Notes: generated by a model from the sequence alone, not told the origin. A DNA stretch of 22,007 nt from a virus (IMGVR_UViG_3300044837_000084:1-22007), one strand, 5' to 3'. Counted from the stretch's first letter, positions 803 to 20,668 are shown. Made by a program: numbers and translations.

Positions 803-1145
803 CCCCGGTGTGCCTCGCTTCTCCAAAGATCCGGTTCCAGCACAGATGGTGGCGTGCATTGACGTTCTGGAACACATCGAGCCCGAGTACTTGGATACCG
901 TCCTCGATCACCTGCGATCTCTCGCCGAAGGTGTCGTTTTCCTCTCGATTGACACGGGGCCTGCACAAAAGGTCTTAAGTGACGGCAGGAATGCCCACTT
1001 GATCCAACAGCCCATGTCCTGGTGGCTGCCTAAGATTTTCGAGCGCTGGGAGGTGCAGACGGTGCAGCTCGCGAGTGAGAGTGGGTTTTTCGTGGTGGGA
1101 ACGGCCATGGTTCGCTTGGAGGCGAAAGACGGCACCTTGCTGTGA
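570..1145 (+). CDS. Class I SAM-dependent methyltransferase
   Basis: A 191-residue protein with a TTG start, preceded by GGAG eight bases upstream. Motif I (VLDYGCG, residues 51-57) binds SAM. An acidic residue follows in AYDPG (76-80), and IDVLEH (97-102) matches motif IV of Rossmann methyltransferases. The N-terminal helix (LSPxYRxxxxxLHA-like, residues 10-24) is typical of phage methyltransferases of this kind and supports the upstream TTG over the later ATG at 705. The first 233 bases overlap the preceding GT9-like frame. The stop overlaps the next gene as GTGA, so translation is probably coupled. Small-molecule or sugar O-methylation is more likely than DNA methylation, because no target-recognition domain or DPPY-type motif is seen. 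The substrate is unknown. Confidence 0.8.
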   Translation: MNAQLQNLERISPAYRAEQERLHATTVYGTASVVYAPVVSAIINRMAITHVLDYGCGAMCNLAKNLKADHKLQYQAYDPGVPRFSKDPVPAQMVACIDVLEHIEPEYLDTVLDHLRSLAEGVVFLSIDTGPAQKVLSDGRNAHLIQQPMSWWLPKIFERWEVQTVQLASESGFFVVGTAMVRLEAKDGTLL

Positions 1146-1813
1146 TCGCCTCCTTCCTGCTCGTGGGTGAGCAGGACTACGCGGCAACGATGGTGCGGTC
1201 CTTAAAAGACGTCCACCACTGCCCGGTCATTCAAATGTCGGACTTGAAGACGCCTGCGGTTCCGGGCGTTGATGAAGTGGTGCGCATCCCATTCAAAGTG
1301 CCCTTGATGCTGTATCGGTTCAAGCATCTGGCGGCCTATCCGCATGACGACATGCTGATCGTCGATACCGACGTGATTGCGAAACACCCGATCGATGACG
1401 TGTGGGCACACCGCTTCGATGTGGGTTTGACCCATCGGGAGCCGGGCGAACTGTATGACGGGGATGGTGATGACCTCTCATCCGCCATGCCATTTAACAC
1501 GGGCGTGATGTTCTCGCGCTCCACGCAGTTTTGGGCTGACTGTTACACCTGGCTTACCCATCAGAGCGAAGCGAAACAGCGCTGGTACGGCGATCAACTT
1601 GCGGTTGCTCACATGGTGGAGCGCGGGACGTACGCCGTCCTAGGGCTTCCCTGTCGCGTTTTCAATTGGGCACCCACCAGTGCCGCGGATACCTCGGACG
1701 CTCGGTTCTTTCACTACAAGGGCGCGATCAGAAAGAAATGGATCAACCACGCATCTACATCGGTTTTGACCAGCGGGAGGCCGTCGCTTATCACGCCTGC
1801 TGTCAATCCATAA
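1142..1813 (+). CDS. GT8-like glycosyltransferase
   Basis: A 223-residue protein with a GTG start that overlaps the methyltransferase stop. The DTD triad at residues 75-77 (after MLIV) is the expected metal and nucleotide-sugar binding motif of GT-A fold enzymes. FNTGVMF (118-124) and WYGDQ (148-152) correspond to the FNTGV and D-Q elements of GT8 and related transferases. HYKG (191-194) is a typical C-terminal donor-phosphate contact. No signal peptide or membrane segment is seen, so it should act in the cytoplasm. The last 25 residues overlap the following gene in another frame. It sits beside a second, different glycosyltransferase, so the two probably add successive sugars. Donor and acceptor are unknown. 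Confidence 0.75.
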   Translation: MIASFLLVGEQDYAATMVRSLKDVHHCPVIQMSDLKTPAVPGVDEVVRIPFKVPLMLYRFKHLAAYPHDDMLIVDTDVIAKHPIDDVWAHRFDVGLTHREPGELYDGDGDDLSSAMPFNTGVMFSRSTQFWADCYTWLTHQSEAKQRWYGDQLAVAHMVERGTYAVLGLPCRVFNWAPTSAADTSDARFFHYKGAIRKKWINHASTSVLTSGRPSLITPAVNP

Positions 1814-2475
1814 TCGAGAAGGCCAGCGTGCCGGTGAGCTTTCACCCGCTGAGCCTGAACATGCTGAAAGGTTTTGACGGCCAGCGCGACGGCACCAACG
1901 CTTTTACGCTCTCGCGCTTTCTCGTGCCGTCACTGTGTGACTTTCAAGGTTGGGCGCTCTTTATCGATGGCGATATGGCGGTCGACATCGATATTGCGGA
2001 ACTGTGGGCCTGGCGCATTGCATTGCATGACAAGGCGGTGGGAGTGGTCAAGCATGACTACACCACCAAGCACCCGCGCAAGTACGTCGGCACGCCGATG
2101 GAAACCACGAACTTGGACTATCCGAAAAAGAATCAATCGAGCGTGATGCTGTGGAACTGCGCGCATCCGATGAATCGAGTGCTCACGCGCGAGTTCGTGG
2201 CGAATGCGACACCCGCCTCTCTGCATCGTTTCGAGTGGCTCGGCAAAAAGGAAATCGGCGGCTTGTCGGCGGGCTGGAATTATTTGGTCAACGAGGAGGC
2301 GCCATCGAGTGCGCATATCTACCACTACACCTTGGGTGTTCCCGGCATGAAGCATTACGCCCAGGACCACGGCTCGTGGAAGTGGCACACCTCATTACTT
2401 CGAATGCTCGAATGCGCGAAAGAAGACCCGGTAGAGATGGTCAAGCGATCACAAGACACGGTGGGTAGTCCATGA
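1738..2475 (+). CDS. Second GT8-like glycosyltransferase
   Basis: A 245-residue protein starting at an ATG inside the end of the preceding gene (76-bp overlap). The start is chosen because the family-typical N-terminus (IYIGFDQREAVAYH, residues 6-19) begins right after it; an in-frame extension upstream is only a shadow of the previous gene. LFIDGDM (74-80) carries the D-x-D metal motif of GT-A enzymes. Further conserved-looking segments are NQSSVMLWNC and the C-terminal HYTLGVPG. Such proteins are often encoded beside tail genes in phages, where they are annotated simply as glycosyltransferases. The stop overlaps the adaptor gene as ATGA, tying the cassette into the structural operon. The role is inferred to be glycan modification; the acceptor is unknown. 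Confidence 0.75.
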   Translation: MDQPRIYIGFDQREAVAYHACCQSIIEKASVPVSFHPLSLNMLKGFDGQRDGTNAFTLSRFLVPSLCDFQGWALFIDGDMAVDIDIAELWAWRIALHDKAVGVVKHDYTTKHPRKYVGTPMETTNLDYPKKNQSSVMLWNCAHPMNRVLTREFVANATPASLHRFEWLGKKEIGGLSAGWNYLVNEEAPSSAHIYHYTLGVPGMKHYAQDHGSWKWHTSLLRMLECAKEDPVEMVKRSQDTVGSP

Positions 2476-16144: not shown

Positions 16145-16174
16145 CGTCTAAGACACCCCTTGGACACTTAGACG
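16145..16174. repeat. Paired CGTCTAAG motifs, probable integrase arm sites (left of core)
   Basis: CGTCTAAG at 16145-16152 and its exact reverse complement at 16167-16174 form an 8-bp inverted pair 35 bases from the att core. A third copy lies on the other side of the core (16297-16304). This layout is that of arm-type sites bound by the N-terminal domain of a tyrosine integrase; which integrase binds them is inference. Confidence 0.6.
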
Positions 16175-16208
16175 GTACGATTCAAATATGATTGTAAGTC
16201 CTTGATTT

Positions 16209-16258
16209 TGGCTCCCCGGGAGAGATTCGAACTCCCGACCAACGGATTAACAGTCCGT
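16209..16258 (-). other. attP core: 3' half of tRNA-Asn(GUU)
   Basis: Read on the reverse strand, these 50 bases equal tRNA positions 27-76. They contain an anticodon stem and loop with CTGTTAA (anticodon GTT), a five-base variable loop, a T arm with TTCGAAT, a 3' acceptor strand CCGGGGA, the discriminator G and an encoded CCA. The D arm and 5' acceptor strand are absent: sequence beyond 16258 does not pair. This is the usual form of a phage attachment core that rebuilds a host tRNA gene on integration. Its place between Int1 and phage genes on both sides points to attP, or to an att site between tandem prophages. Confidence 0.85.
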
Positions 16259-16262
16259 TTAC

Positions 16263-16276
16263 GTTCCACGTGAAAC
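16263..16276. promoter_or_regulatory. parS-like near-palindrome
   Basis: GTTCCACGTGAAAC equals the inner 14 bases of the bacterial chromosomal parS consensus as I recall it (TGTTNCACGTGAAACA); only the two outer bases differ. It lies 4 bases from the tRNA core, between core and Int1. It may bind host ParB or a phage regulator, or act as an integrase or excisionase site. Confidence 0.5.
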
Positions 16277-16296
16277 CAACCACTTACCTCCATTTG

Positions 16297-16304
16297 CGTC
16301 TAAG
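16297..16304 (+). repeat. Third CGTCTAAG motif (right of core)
   Basis: An exact third copy of the arm-type motif, immediately downstream of the Int1 stop codon. With the flanking bases, copies 1 and 3 share CGTCTAAG-x-CACC. Sites on both sides of the core are expected for a lambda-like intasome. Confidence 0.55.
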
Positions 16305-17198
16305 TCACCGGACCGGTTTGATGCGCGAGCGGCGCACATAGACCCCCATCATTTGGGCGTTGTGACCGAGGATGTTATGGCTGGCATCGGTCGCCGCCTT
16401 GGGCCGCAGTTCCCGGAACCGGAACCCCGCGTTTAGGCGCTTCATGGCGCTCTGTAGGCCGTCCATGGTGTAGGGCCTACCCTTCTCGCCCACAAAGACA
16501 AACTCGTTCTGTGAGCGCGCCAGGGCCTGCTCAATGAAGTATTTGAGGGGCGTGCTCCATTCGATCTCCCGCAACTTGCCATCCTTCGACTGCGTAACCT
16601 GAATCCCGGTGGACGTGATGGCTTCCCGGGTCAGCAACCGCAGATCCCCTTGCCGCAATCCCGTCAGATAGGCCACCGCCAGCAAATCCCGCAACGGGAC
16701 CGGCGCGCGGTTCAGCACGTCGACCAGCTCCTGATTCTCGATATAGCGCTTCGATGGCCTTTCCTTGTTGCGCCGGACGCCCAAGCAGGGATTCGACACG
16801 CACCAGCCAAACCGCATCCCCCAGCTAATCACCGATCCCAGCACGGCCCGCTCCCGATTCCCGCCGACGGCCGCCCCTTCGACTTTCCGCATTTCGAGGT
16901 ATTGGGCTACGTGCGTCGGCTCGAGCGCGTTCAGGATGACGTGGCCGAAATGGTGCTGTAGGCGCGCATTGATGATTCGCAGGTATTCGGGCTGGGTCGC
17001 TGGCTTCAATTCTGGTAAAGCCCGGGCGATGTACAGCATCATCAATTGTCCGTAGGTCGCCGGCCGGTCTGTGGTCCATTCTTGAAGGGCGGTATAGAGC
17101 GCGGTTGCGCCTTCGTCGACCCGGGAGAGTGGGTGCCATTTGTTTTGATGGACGTAGAAGTACCGGCCGTGTCTTTGGTGGACTTTTGGGGGCAGCAT
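16305..17198 (-). CDS. Tyrosine integrase Int1, adjacent to attP, atypical box II
   Basis: A 297-residue tyrosine recombinase. The N-terminal LPPKVHQRHGRYFYVHQNKWHPL is an arm-binding type beta segment. A helical core-binding domain follows (about 48-140), then the catalytic domain with R182 (TGLRQGD), lysine in QSKDGK (205/208), R265, H279 (LGH) and Y287 (GVYVRR). The box II histidine of the usual H-x-L-R motif is replaced by arginine (RELR, 262-265), and only 14 residues separate R265 from H279, against about 19-22 in most relatives, so a helix is shortened. An arginine at this place may occur in some phage relatives, but I cannot verify that here. The ATG has no clear ribosome site, so coupling to the overlapping DUF4224-like gene is likely. 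Its 3' end points at the att core 47 bases away. Confidence 0.88.
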   Translation of the reverse strand: MLPPKVHQRHGRYFYVHQNKWHPLSRVDEGATALYTALQEWTTDRPATYGQLMMLYIARALPELKPATQPEYLRIINARLQHHFGHVILNALEPTHVAQYLEMRKVEGAAVGGNRERAVLGSVISWGMRFGWCVSNPCLGVRRNKERPSKRYIENQELVDVLNRAPVPLRDLLAVAYLTGLRQGDLRLLTREAITSTGIQVTQSKDGKLREIEWSTPLKYFIEQALARSQNEFVFVGEKGRPYTMDGLQSAMKRLNAGFRFRELRPKAATDASHNILGHNAQMMGVYVRRSRIKPVR

Positions 17199-17395
17199 TT
17201 TGGAGGCGGCGTGAAGTCCGGTCGGTTGTATTTCGAGTCACCGTACATCGCCCGGTTAATCGCGTCCAGCGTCGTGACCGGATCGCCGGACGGCTGAACC
17301 ATGAAAGCCACCCCATTGGCCCGTAGCCAGCGGCGCACGTCAGACCGCCGTTGGAGGCCGGAAAGCTTGCGCAAATGGGGCAAGTCGGCGATCAC
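17042..17395 (-). CDS. DUF4224-like protein upstream of integrase
   Basis: A 117-residue protein from the GTG that overlaps the previous stop (GTGA). Residues 8-60 (LRKLSGLQRRSDVRRWLRANGVAF, then GDPVTTLDAINRAM) match the short winged-helix-like DUF4224 family, whose members usually sit directly before phage integrase genes and are candidates for excisionase-type or accessory DNA-binding factors. The family is normally about 70 residues. Here the frame continues another 51 residues (K-, T- and P-rich) inside the Int1 gene, so the tail is probably unselected read-through or the result of a lost stop. Function in recombination directionality is inference. Confidence 0.7.
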   Translation of the reverse strand: MIADLPHLRKLSGLQRRSDVRRWLRANGVAFMVQPSGDPVTTLDAINRAMYGDSKYNRPDFTPPPKCCPQKSTKDTAGTSTSIKTNGTHSPGSTKAQPRSIPPFKNGPQTGRRPTDN

Positions 17396-17589
17396 GGCTT
17401 CGGCGGCTCCTCTTTCGCTGGCGCAAGCTGCGACCCGCACGCCCCACACCAGCGCATGACCCCGGCTATCGCTTGATACCGCATCTTGCAATCAGGATTG
17501 ACGCACTCGAGTAGGACGGTCGACGCGATGCGGCGCGCGGCGGCGATCGCATACGCAAGAGTCACAGCGGGAGTATCAGGGCGGCGCAT
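17392..17589 (-). CDS. Small zinc-ribbon protein
   Basis: A 65-residue protein from the ATG at 17589, chosen because GGTGG lies at ribosome-site distance and the longer frame is arginine-rich shadow of the neighbour. It has two cysteine pairs, CVNPDC and CGAC, 19 residues apart, forming a likely zinc ribbon, preceded by an alanine-rich helix. A proline/lysine tail ends it. It overlaps the gene before it and the DUF4224-like gene after it (GTGA). Function is unknown. Confidence 0.6.
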   Translation of the reverse strand: MRRPDTPAVTLAYAIAAARRIASTVLLECVNPDCKMRYQAIAGVMRWCGACGSQLAPAKEEPPKP

Positions 17590-17767
17590 CGACACCACCG
17601 GCATCAAAGATAGCTCCGCGCGACGGGTGTTCGGTTCTGAAGATCGCCGCCGTTCCCTCCTCGCCCAAGAACCGGTAGCCGCTGCCATCCGCCAGGGCAT
17701 AAGGCCCTTCTAATCCGCGCAGCCGGCACGCTCGCTCCCAATTCTCGTAGGTGCCGACAATGATCAC
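17576..17767 (-). CDS. Small hypothetical phage protein
   Basis: A 63-residue protein from the GTG overlapping the previous stop (GTGA). It begins MIIVGTYENWERACRLRGLEG and contains GYRFLGEEGTAAIF, giving a small alpha/beta look. No cysteine pairs, membrane segments or known domain are seen. It overlaps the next gene by 14 bases. Coupling on both sides is the chief evidence that it is expressed. Confidence 0.55.
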   Translation of the reverse strand: MIIVGTYENWERACRLRGLEGPYALADGSGYRFLGEEGTAAIFRTEHPSRGAIFDAGGVDAPP

Positions 17768-18162
17768 GGCTTGGCTGCTCCGGCATCAGGTTGCGGCGTC
17801 GGCGGCTCTCCAATGGGGCGCACATTTTCTTTTCCCGTAGGCACGGTCTTGGTGTTGGTTTTGGTCGCCCCTTCTGTTGGCCGCTTCGCCACGGCATCAG
17901 CAGGAAAGCCGGGAAGTACGCAGCCGGTTAGCGCATGTTCGACCAAGGCGATTTCCTTGCGCCAGTCAGGGATCGTGCGGCCGTCATCGTTGGGCGACCA
18001 GACTGCCTCGGCAGGCCATCCGATGAAGTGCATCCGCAGCTTGACAGCCTGAAGCACGGCCACCAATCTGGAATTTTCGACTGCAAGTTCGCGGATACGC
18101 TTATCGCGAGCGGCGACCACGGCATCAGCCGCCCGTCGCACTTCATTTGCCGTAGCTTTCAT
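17764..18162 (-). CDS. Hypothetical protein with N-terminal coiled coil and proline-rich tail
   Basis: A 132-residue protein whose ATG is preceded by GGGGTGA. Residues 1-45 form a charged helix with heptad character (AADAVVAARDKRIRELAVENSRL). A compact middle (HFIGWPAEAVWSPNDDGRTI, then WRKEIALVEHAL) looks folded. The last 45 residues are K-, T- and P-rich and probably disordered. It is part of the leftward small-gene chain; no family is recognised. Confidence 0.6.
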   Translation of the reverse strand: MKATANEVRRAADAVVAARDKRIRELAVENSRLVAVLQAVKLRMHFIGWPAEAVWSPNDDGRTIPDWRKEIALVEHALTGCVLPGFPADAVAKRPTEGATKTNTKTVPTGKENVRPIGEPPTPQPDAGAAKP

Positions 18163-18165
18163 TAC

Positions 18166-18399
18166 TCACCCCCCCTCGTTCGTTGAGCCAATCGCCTTCG
18201 CCGCGGCATCAGCCTCAGAGCATTCGCCGTAGTAGCCCTCGCACTTCGGACAGCGCCAATACCAAATACCGTTGCGCTCGAACCGCTCAAGCTGCTGGCG
18301 AACCGGCTTACCGTCCAAGAATGCGAAGGGTAGACAGCAAAAACAGCCTTCAGAGATCAGGCTGAAACCTTGGTCCTCGCAATCGTTGTCGGCAATCAC
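18166..18399 (-). CDS. Small cysteine-rich, zinc-ribbon-like protein
   Basis: A 77-residue protein from the GTG at 18399, which overlaps the stop of the small membrane protein gene (GTGA). Cysteines occur as EGCFCC near residue 20 and as CPKCEGYYGEC near residues 50-60, the latter after WYWR, a zinc-ribbon arrangement. The longer upstream frame overlaps two neighbours and lacks a ribosome site. Possible DNA- or protein-binding microprotein; function unknown. Confidence 0.6.
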   Translation of the reverse strand: MIADNDCEDQGFSLISEGCFCCLPFAFLDGKPVRQQLERFERNGIWYWRCPKCEGYYGECSEADAAAKAIGSTNEGG

Positions 18400-18506
18400 T
18401 TCACTTCTCCATCGGCCCTGAAGCAAAGGTTCGTCGGGAACGCAATGACGATCAGAATCAGCACTCCCCAAATCACTTGCAGCGTGGTCATGACGGTTTC
18501 AAACAT
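18396..18506 (-). CDS. 36-residue single-TM membrane protein
   Basis: A very short gene supported by a strong ribosome site (AGGAG, 7 bases before the ATG). Residues 6-25 (MTTLQVIWGVLILIVIAFPT) form one membrane segment, followed by a short tail (NLCFRADGEVK). It overlaps the gene before it by 8 bases and the next by 4. It may act on the host membrane or on exclusion, but no family is recognised. Confidence 0.6.
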   Translation of the reverse strand: MFETVMTTLQVIWGVLILIVIAFPTNLCFRADGEVK

Positions 18507-18732
18507 CGGGCTCTCCTGCTGTTTCACGCGCGAAGCGACGGCGCTCGGCCCGCATGCCTTCGACGAACGCGGCTGCAATCTCGTCTCTCGCTGATTCAAA
18601 CTGCATAAAGCCGCTCTTTTCGGCTCTGCCCCATGACTTCATGTTGCGAGCGATATAACTCTGCGAACGCACGAAATCCTTCTTGTAGGAATTTTTGATC
18701 CCGCCGAAAGGTAACCGGAATTTAACGGCCAT
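18499..18732 (-). CDS. Small basic hypothetical protein
   Basis: A 77-residue protein with an ATG after AGGGGGA at normal spacing. The N-terminus is basic (MAVKFRLPFGGIKNSYKKDF) and the C-terminal half is a charged helix (ARDEIAAAFVEGMRAERRRFARE). No cysteine pairs or membrane segments are present. The strong ribosome site and short overlaps on both sides support expression. No family is recognised. Confidence 0.6.
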   Translation of the reverse strand: MAVKFRLPFGGIKNSYKKDFVRSQSYIARNMKSWGRAEKSGFMQFESARDEIAAAFVEGMRAERRRFARETAGEPDV

Positions 18733-18919
18733 CGTTTCCCCCTGGATTAACGGGTGTCATGCTGATGGGACGGCCGCAGTAGGGGCAGAACGACCATACG
18801 CGCTCAAGCGTGCGCAATAGCTCCGAGTCCTCGCCTGGGTGATCGTCCGGGAAATACCATTCCCTAGAACTTTTTGGCTCGCGTTTCCACAGGCAATACT
18901 TATCGGCTGGGTCGCTCAT
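18722..18919 (-). CDS. Small zinc-finger-type protein
   Basis: A 65-residue protein starting in an ATGA overlap with the previous gene. CPYCGRPI near residues 45-52, with a further cysteine in KYCLWKRE near residue 9, is the pattern of small zinc-binding phage proteins. The centre (SREWYFPDDHPGEDSELLRT) is acidic. Function is unknown; nucleic-acid or protein binding is possible. Confidence 0.6.
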   Translation of the reverse strand: MSDPADKYCLWKREPKSSREWYFPDDHPGEDSELLRTLERVWSFCPYCGRPISMTPVNPGGNDGR

Positions 18920-19146
18920 TTGACAGCCCTGGATGTTGGCTCGACGGTGATGCTGAGGCGCTCTAGAAGGTCTTTCACATCGTGATCGCCGGAATATACA
19001 AAGTCACTCGTGTGTCCGTTGTCGCGATCTTCTCCGGTGATTTCCAGCGCAGCTTCCATCACCTGGTCTAGCAGATCGTATTGGCGCTTCGATATCGCCG
19101 CAAGACCGACGAGTTGGTAGTACTGATTCTTGGTGATCGTTTTCAT
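18916..19146 (-). CDS. Small acidic helical hypothetical protein
   Basis: A 76-residue protein from the ATG at 19146, with GGAG 8 bases upstream and an ATGA overlap with the previous gene. The longer frame into 19287 is arginine-rich shadow and is rejected. Two helices (YYQLVGLAAISKRQYDLLDQ and VKDLLERL) flank an acidic loop (GEDRDNGHTSD). No known domain is recognised. Confidence 0.6.
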   Translation of the reverse strand: MKTITKNQYYQLVGLAAISKRQYDLLDQVMEAALEITGEDRDNGHTSDFVYSGDHDVKDLLERLSITVEPTSRAVK

Positions 19147-19586
19147 GACCGGAACTCCACGACCTTGGGGCCGTTCTTCTCTGGCGGCGGTAACAGGCCA
19201 GCGGCGTTCGCTGCGTCGATCACGCGGCGGCCATCGCCTAGCACCATGTGTGGCAGAAACGCCGTGTCGAAGCTCAGCACGCCGCACTCAATCGCCGTGG
19301 TCTGTCCCTTGACCCAATCCCGCAGGATCGAATACACAGCCCGCTTGGCGTGCGCCAATGCGTCGTCGCGCTTCCAGCCGCTTTTGGTCACGAGTGCTTG
19401 GGCGTAGCCGGTCCAACTCGCCTCAAGCTGCACCTGCCGATCACGCCACTTAAACACCACGATGGCGACTGAGCGGTCGTTATCGGTCATCGTGCCGAAG
19501 GACTGGCAACCGAAGGCCGCGAGGGTCTTGGTGATCTCTTGCATGGCGTCGGTTTTCAGCTTCACGAATTCATACGGGATCGGCAT
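19143..19586 (-). CDS. Conserved-looking phage protein of unknown function
   Basis: A 147-residue protein with an ATG 6 bases after AGGAG. It has an alpha/beta N-terminal half with FGTMTDNDRSVAIVVFKWRDRQVQLEA strands and a helical C-terminal half (ALAHAKRAVYSILRDWVKG, then ECGVLSFDTAFLPHMVLGDGRRV). The latter resembles a C-terminal motif (ESGI.TFEEEFLPH) I have seen in many uncharacterised phage proteins. This is recognition from memory, without a known activity. It is the largest member of the leftward small-gene chain. Confidence 0.65.
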   Translation of the reverse strand: MPIPYEFVKLKTDAMQEITKTLAAFGCQSFGTMTDNDRSVAIVVFKWRDRQVQLEASWTGYAQALVTKSGWKRDDALAHAKRAVYSILRDWVKGQTTAIECGVLSFDTAFLPHMVLGDGRRVIDAANAAGLLPPPEKNGPKVVEFRS

Positions 19587-19797
19587 TGGCTGCTCCTGAA
19601 GTAGTGGTTGACTCCTTGGCGAGCGTGTAATCCAAGAACGCCTCAAGCGAGGATTCGCAGAGACCACCCAGGGGCCGCTCCGCATCGGGATATGTGCCGC
19701 CCATGAATTGAATGCGTTGCACGACGCCGCCAGGGATGCTCGGTTCGTCACCAATCTCGAAGATGGCGCGTGCCAGTTTTGTTGCGAGAGGGTTCAT
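19570..19797 (-). CDS. Small hypothetical protein after Int2
   Basis: A 75-residue protein from the ATG at 19797, with AAGGTGG just upstream. It starts with a short helix (NPLATKLARAIFEIG) and contains IPGGVVQRIQFMGG and CESSLEAFLDYTLAKE. The longer frame upstream runs into Int2 and is not needed. It overlaps the next start by 17 bases. It may be a regulatory microprotein; no family is recognised. Confidence 0.55.
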   Translation of the reverse strand: MNPLATKLARAIFEIGDEPSIPGGVVQRIQFMGGTYPDAERPLGGLCESSLEAFLDYTLAKESTTTSGAANADPV

Positions 19798-19822
19798 TCG
19801 CCACCTTGTAAAGTAGATTGAT

Positions 19823-20668
19823 TCATCGCAGCGGCTGCACAACGCGACGGGCGCGATCGTAGACACGCCGAGTCATCTTGATATCGATGTGACCGGCGAG
19901 CAGGTAGGCGGAATCAAGGCTCAGGTTGTCTGAGATGCTCTTGGCGCGGATATCGTGAAAATGCCAACGTTCGTTACCTGCGTCTTCCCATGCGCGCATC
20001 GAGCGCTGCCACATCGCTCTAAAACCATCCTCCGAGTACCGCAAGCCCTTCGCCCCGTACTTAGGATTCGTGCGTATCACGTATTCTCTCGGCCAATGCG
20101 GCAACATCAGCTTGGCGCGCTTCAGGACGGTCTCTACGGCCGGCGAGATCATGATCGCCAGCTTCTTTCCCGTCTTGCCTTGGTCGATCTCAATGTGCCA
20201 TTTGTCGCGCGGCAGTCCAATCGCCCGAACCTGCTTCCAGGTCAGCCCCACGATGTCTCCCTGCCGCTGTCCCGTGAGGAGCGCGAGGTCCATCGCAATC
20301 TGTACCTGGGCACAGCAGGTAGCCCGGAATGCGTCGAACTCTTCAGTGGTGACGTAACGGTCTCTCGGCTTCGTAGGCCAGCGCTCAACGCCTGTGCATG
20401 GGTTCCGCAGGTCATCCTGGATGCACCAGCGCCCGATGGCTTTCTTGAACACGGTCGAAAGGATCGTGACCATGCGGTTTCGATGAATGCGGCCGGTCTT
20501 AACCTCGAGGAAATCCACCACCATGCGCGGCGTGACTTGGCTCGGTTCAAGATGGCCGAAAGTTTGGCGAAGTAGGACTAGGATGCCCAAATAGTCGCGC
20601 TGACTGCGCGGCTGTAAATCAGGAATGCACTCGGCAGCGTACCGATCAAACAAGTCGTTCATGCTCAT
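19823..20668 (-). CDS. Tyrosine recombinase Int2, full catalytic set
   Basis: A 281-residue tyrosine recombinase starting at ATG 20668 (or 20662). A helical core-binding domain (about 3-95) begins at once, so the usual N-terminal arm-binding domain is missing. The catalytic domain carries R135 (TGQRQGD), K165 (QGKTGKK), H238 and R241 (FHDIR), H260 (AGH) and Y270 (RRVYDR), all in place. Box II to H260 spacing is 19 residues, as in active enzymes. It is clearly different in sequence from Int1. It lies in mid-operon, about 3.6 kb from the only recognisable att core. Possible roles: the real integrase, a second recombinase for another site, or a relic of an inserted element. No start extends the protein upstream; a stop closes the frame about 110 bases before the ATG. 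Confidence 0.88.
   Translation of the reverse strand: MSMNDLFDRYAAECIPDLQPRSQRDYLGILVLLRQTFGHLEPSQVTPRMVVDFLEVKTGRIHRNRMVTILSTVFKKAIGRWCIQDDLRNPCTGVERWPTKPRDRYVTTEEFDAFRATCCAQVQIAMDLALLTGQRQGDIVGLTWKQVRAIGLPRDKWHIEIDQGKTGKKLAIMISPAVETVLKRAKLMLPHWPREYVIRTNPKYGAKGLRYSEDGFRAMWQRSMRAWEDAGNERWHFHDIRAKSISDNLSLDSAYLLAGHIDIKMTRRVYDRARRVVQPLR

Follow-up and report, generated by a model that had tools for sequence, protein, structure and literature searches.

Two different tyrosine recombinases are encoded in the window analyzed here, the whole 22,007-bp virus record IMGVR_UViG_3300044837_000084:1-22007, a single metagenomic contig, and the evidence assembled below suggests that they differ in both age and use. 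One of them, Int1, appears to belong to the module that integrates the phage, and the other, Int2, appears to be an older integrase of the left operon, devoid of an arm-binding domain, that is dispensable and, in this phage, still intact. We give this interpretation a probability of about 0.55. The presence of two such enzymes in one phage had been proposed in a sequence-only reading of this DNA, and on this point the reading stands: both are intact open reading frames (ORFs) with the coordinates and strand first assigned to them, both match Pfam Phage_integrase (PF00589) above cut-off, and each matches PHROG integrase families. They share approximately 28% identity and form separate old clades with full tree support, and the tree rules out a recent duplication of one integrase.

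As to Int1, the protein possesses the core-binding and catalytic domains of tyrosine recombinases, preceded by an N-terminus that resembles an arm-binding domain (LPPKV..GRYFY..KWHPLSR), with a short beta-beta-beta-helix order predicted at moderate confidence (confidence in the AlphaFold models is low to middling, with predicted local distance difference test scores of 57 and 69, and they were used for secondary-structure order and best fold matches only). Directly behind the gene lies the 3' half of a tRNA-Asn gene, the core of a phage attachment site (attP), and in the entire 22 kb the heptamer TTAGACG/CGTCTAA occurs only three times, each time at attP and inside a 160-bp span (Table 1), CGTCTAAG being the sole 8-mer with three copies inside 220 bp anywhere in the window. 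The arm-binding-like N-terminus and the location at attP, both claimed originally, are thus borne out. The catalytic set reads R-K-R-R-H-Y, with box II being RELR where HxxR is expected, the textbook histidine being replaced by an arginine; as the integrases of the cultured phages Alize, Marilyn, and PA8 share this variant, it is no defect peculiar to this phage. The DUF4224 gene that accompanies Int1 is conserved beside its relatives, and it precedes an integrase also in Vibrio phage Marilyn and in three plasmids. Indeed, Marilyn, mEp390, and phage-like plasmids present the same order of a small accessory gene (DUF4224 or a putative excisionase), an arm-bearing integrase, and attP, although Int1 stands apart from the integrases of cultured proteobacterial phages as a separate clade, its N-terminus being shorter and its identity to them about 25–30%. 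Relatives of Int1 possess similar layouts, with tRNA-Asn-like cores in G001, G002, G003, and G004 and a tRNA-Lys-like core in G006, and their arm motifs vary from phage to phage (TTAGACG, TTAGAGA, TGGGACA, TTGAGAG), being identical on both sides of the core within each. With the domains, the predicted arm domain and its flanking sites, the tRNA-derived attP, and the catalytic set all present, the DUF4224 gene, Int1, and attP make up a complete, self-sufficient, ordinary lambda-type integration module, and Int1 most likely, by analogy, carries out both the integration and the excision of the phage. The differences in the arm motifs are accompanied by differences in the Int1 N-terminus (attP regions: window 16145–16303, L003, L057, L038, L041, and L008), a covariation that could let arm-site recognition be deciphered.

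Int2 presents a different picture. It begins at the core-binding domain, with 5 residues before the reference column, versus 43–85 in its arm-bearing relatives, and consists of core-binding and catalytic domains only, the architecture of a simple tyrosine recombinase with a full catalytic set. The six catalytic residues are invariant in nine intact Int2-type proteins, so that the description originally offered, of a full R-K-H-R-H-Y set in an enzyme with no arm-binding N-terminus, holds as given. The family pN/pS ratio (nonsynonymous to synonymous polymorphism) of 0.20–0.39 indicates purifying selection. The suggestion of a Cre/Xer-like partner found no support in terms of descent: lambda Int is the only PDB match of the Int2 sequence profile, and the alignment starts at residue 1 of the arm-less construct of lambda Int, residues 75–356 (PDB 1z19, 1p7d), Int2 being naturally armless and the identity low (17–20% in the structural match). 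In a tree to which XerD, Cre, Brujita Int, and lambda Int were added, Int2 is placed among arm-bearing phage integrases (93/92). Loss of the arm domain within a lambda-type lineage would therefore be the likelier history of Int2, judging from these sequence comparisons. A precedent for this type of loss is presented by the Rci shufflon recombinases (IntP2 subgroup), in which the arm domain is missing inside an arm-bearing group (PMC8138268), though, unlike Rci, the Int2 phages possess no common invertible repeats, and the inverted repeats around invertible segments that mark a shufflon or invertase were not found. A likeness in architecture is found in Brujita Int of a mycobacteriophage, an armless phage integrase of the IntBrujita subgroup of simple tyrosine recombinases (PMC8138268, PMC7194413), which, as Int2, is limited to core-binding and catalytic domains. 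However, Brujita Int groups with XerD and adjoins a repressor gene, and Int2 is closest to arm-bearing lambda-type enzymes, often with a second integrase nearby. The Int2 case points to arm binding as a property that lambda-type integrases can lose.

The distribution of Int2 among related phages is spotty, the gene occurring alone, paired, truncated, or as a relic, so that the variable presence for which the sequence-only reading proposed a comparison is supported. The close relatives are known as metagenomic contigs, which were classed as linear, and failure to find a second integrase in one of near full length does not prove that there is none; the number of co-occurrences is also small. In five phages (G007, G010, G011, G012, and G013; 38–41 kb, near full length) Int2 is the sole recombinase found by PF00589 and profile searches; no serine recombinase was detected in the Int2 phages, and no ParA in those with Int2 only. 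One of the five, G013, encodes a CI/Cro-type repressor-like helix-turn-helix protein, along with ExoVIII and a helicase. Four records, the window, G006, G009, and G289, encode Int2 and a separate canonical integrase. The partner is Int1 in G006, where the contig ends inside Int2 (125 aa visible), an unrelated enzyme, Int3, in G009, and, in G289, a relative of Int3 that has a helix-turn-helix ORF ahead of it and a tRNA-Met fragment behind it. The order in G289 is the order of the window: armless Int2, approximately 2 kb of small genes, an accessory gene, a full-length integrase, and a tRNA attP; the order of integrases in G006 and G009 differs from it. A further record is G673, in which the window order is seen again, with a phrog_17260 gene of 83.5% DNA identity to that of the window and with an intact DUF4224-integrase-tRNA-Arg module of yet another kind, and in which Int2 is reduced to a C-terminal relic of 70 residues behind an unrelated reading frame. 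A decaying relic of one enzyme, with a single enzyme left in the close relatives, had been named originally as what would speak against the reading; such a relic beside an intact second integrase is seen in G673 and not in the other relatives. In G008 and G673, homologues of phrog_17260 lie close to Int2 or to its relic, and a weak homologue is present in G006. Int2 is truncated in G288, and a scan of bacterial genomes produced as its only match one decayed homologue, in a Gammaproteobacteria metagenome-assembled genome (MAG) from a bog (L035 10000–10720), from which the catalytic arginine and histidine residues are lost. The Int1 phage G001 has early genes in common with those directly preceding Int2 in G011, and no Int2 match is present in its 38.6 kb. 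Two side observations concern these phages. In L097 (8490–9210) the place of the 5' part of Int2 is occupied by an ORF that looks like a homing-endonuclease-type gene and is related to an ORF of G007 (32690–33367), and the Int2 relic is what is left. A 378-bp stretch is 98.7% identical between L047 (G010 35703–36080) and L051 (G012 34314–34691), phages otherwise of about 65–75% DNA identity, which by sequence comparison is a recent gene transfer.

The following scenario may be envisaged. The window would represent a fragment of a mosaic temperate-type phage. Judging from the enzyme family, the N-terminal domain of Int1 would bind the TTAGACG arm sites, its core-binding and catalytic domains would act at the anticodon arm of tRNA-Asn, and insertion would restore the 3' half of the host tRNA-Asn. 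Int2 would be the second integrase, resident in the left operon; in the lineage from which it comes, it is often the sole recombinase found. We infer that it is the older resident and catalytically active, and, having no arm sites, it would recombine a short core site in the simple, Brujita-like manner. In different phages, canonical modules for integration, of at least three unrelated kinds, would have been acquired next to Int2, making it dispensable, and decay would have proceeded to a C-terminal relic in one of them, G673.

Some of the data weigh against this scenario. Of nine phages, eight have the start of the next gene within −20 to approximately +39 bp of the Int2 stop codon, so that an attP placed like that of Int1 does not fit, and no attP beside Int2 has been found, bar a 5' fragment of tRNA-Thr in G009; an integrase in the middle of an operon with no attP is unusual. 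A grouping of Int2 with the simple recombinases (Xer/Cre/Brujita) is not rejected by the approximately unbiased test (p = 0.157). Finally, two capsid relatives possess no recognizable integrase, and the five phages with Int2 only may be non-lysogenic.

Other types of sites were also sought. No tRNA-derived attP was recognized in the Int2-only phages (T-arm and D-arm scans, with Rfam applied to part of the phages), no second repeat cluster like that of attP is present near Int2 in the window, and no lox/dif-type inverted repeat is shared by the Int2 phages at the thresholds used (11-bp arms, at most one mismatch, spacer of 5–9), which weaker sites would escape. A repeat cluster in G007 and G010 was considered as an Int2 site and rejected, as it proved to consist of iteron-like repeats after the helicase gene. 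Repeats of the TTTGTGCA type, along with a hairpin, are found just after the helicase/primase gene in the Int2-only phages (L043, L046, L050, L052, and L048), and they look like an iteron replication origin. In G009 (L045, 32897–33108), Int2 is followed immediately by the 5' half of tRNA-Thr, not the 3' half, amid three GTACAC motifs, an orientation unusual for a tRNA-derived attP; the fragment may belong to either of the two integrases of this phage. Also in G009, an exact 20-bp direct repeat (L045, 27517 and 35441) is found on either side of about 8 kb that include Int2.

The main rival explanation makes Int2 an accessory recombinase of the Cre/Xer-like type, one that would work on the DNA of the phage itself, in dimer or concatemer resolution or in circularization, and would not be needed for lysogeny, Int1 being the sole integrase. 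Such a role would suit the simple architecture and the lack of attP room behind Int2, as well as the early genes of the left operon, ExoVIII and AAA_24, that lie ahead of Int2 in G007, G012, and G013, and the presence of a canonical integrase 1.7–4.7 kb away on the same strand in five records, the G673 relic included. However, the nearest solved sequence relatives are lambda Int and not Cre or Xer, a common lox/dif-type site and, in Int2-only phages, ParA are lacking, Int2 has been lost in G673, and it is the sole recombinase found in five phages, so we hold this explanation possible and clearly the less probable one. Equally tentative is a view in which the Int2 lineage, originating from arm-bearing lambda-type integrases, would provide an early-operon accessory recombinase (for genome resolution or arm-free integration), carried alongside interchangeable canonical modules and yet independently of them, with two recombination systems per phage operating by different rules.

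It is also conceivable that Int2 in the window is a dying passenger, intact in sequence and unused, with the Int1 module doing all the work. The relic of G673, the truncated copy of G288, and the decayed homologue in the MAG speak for this, as does the completeness of the Int1 module alone. We consider this improbable, as the Int2 frame is open with all of the catalytic residues kept, its terminal branch in the window is short (0.07), and the gene is intact in several two-integrase phages. If Int2 were a DNA-binding regulatory protein built on a recombinase fold, on the model of SPbeta MrpR, it would not require an attP, and MrpR/YopR are among the weaker Foldseek matches of the predicted Int2 structure, but MrpR is without the catalytic arginine and histidine residues (PMC10516654), which are invariant in the intact Int2 proteins, making this explanation very unlikely. 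Two tandem prophages joined, a possibility raised originally, or a chimeric assembly could also place two integrases on one metagenomic contig, but this is hardly credible, since there is a single attP, whose core has an identical arm motif to its left and to its right, tying both sides to one phage, bounding repeats are lacking, the guanine-plus-cytosine (GC) content is even, and the gene order of the window recurs in G289 and, with the Int2 relic, in G673.

Phages with two integrases have been noted before. One example is Gordonia phage Culver, with two predicted tyrosine integrases (PMC10868165), and others are the Staphylococcus aureus phage TEM126 (PMC6507118) and phIS3501 (PMC3335513), each with two predicted integrases, of which the role of the second was called unclear. 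As in the window, two integrases reside in one phage, with the role of the second unclear or not assigned; those, however, are single-phage reports, and in the present set a single armless clade is seen repeatedly, with partners of three unrelated kinds. No armless lambda-type clade that recurs together with interchangeable modules for integration was encountered in the literature searched; two-integrase phages and armless integrases are each already known, and it is their pairing here that is new. The relatives can be matched case by case, as Int2 is alone in some, accompanied by one or the other of two unrelated kinds of partners in others, and decaying beside a third kind, and thus the role of a second phage tyrosine recombinase becomes testable by deletion.

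As to the context of the two genes (Table 1), rightward virion structural and head-closure genes are followed in the window by the region with the two leftward recombinase genes. Both genes are on the minus strand; the single leftward operon originally envisaged is not strictly gapless, with about 0.5 kb of weak coding upstream of Int2. A chain of small genes does lie between Int1 and Int2, with a count of about eight or nine rather than about ten, including the DUF4224 gene and a gene matching phrog_17260. The idea of a captured cassette bounded by direct repeats found no support: none were detected in a search of 16.3–21.2 kb, no exact 15-bp repeats, direct or inverted, exist in the window, and no GC shift marks a cassette. 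Scans for promoters and terminators produced matches at chance level only.

Table 1. Features of the integrase region of the window
Feature	Coordinates	Strand	Evidence and remarks
Arm-type site TTAGACG, lysis-side arm	16145..16151	-	
Arm-type site TTAGACG, lysis-side arm	16168..16174	+	inverted relative to the 16145 site
attP core, 3' half of tRNA-Asn(GTT)	16209..16258	-	anticodon arm, T arm, acceptor, CCA
Arm-type site TTAGACG, Int1 side	16297..16303	-	beside Int1 stop codon
Int1, lambda-type tyrosine integrase, 297 aa	16305..17198	-	Pfam, PHROG, alignment, tree, model
DUF4224 gene, putative excisionase/accessory	17042..17395	-	PF13986 above cut-off; directly upstream of and overlapping Int1 start
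Five small ORFs without assigned function	17392..18919 (17392-17700, 17764-18162, 18166-18471, 18499-18732, 18722-18919)	-	weak zinc-ribbon matches in two of the five
Small ORF, 76 aa	18916..19146	-	
phrog_17260 protein	19143..19616	-	PHROG match
Small ORF, 75 aa	19570..19797	-	start 25 bp past Int2 stop, thus no attP space there
Int2, armless tyrosine recombinase, 281 aa	19823..20668	-	full R135-K165-H238-R241-H260-Y270 set

Two further observations lie outside the region of the two integrases. Glycosyltransferase-like ORFs, with one weak Glyco_transf_8 match, are located upstream of the virion and head-closure genes of the window (1142–2475). In L006 (1306–2623) and, with identical sequence, in L007, the integrase gene has a second copy of its final 75 bp downstream, and a stop/start junction of 23 nt (..GGTGCGCTGATG) is found five times at small-gene boundaries, a pattern that looks as if genes were added via recombination at linker sequences.

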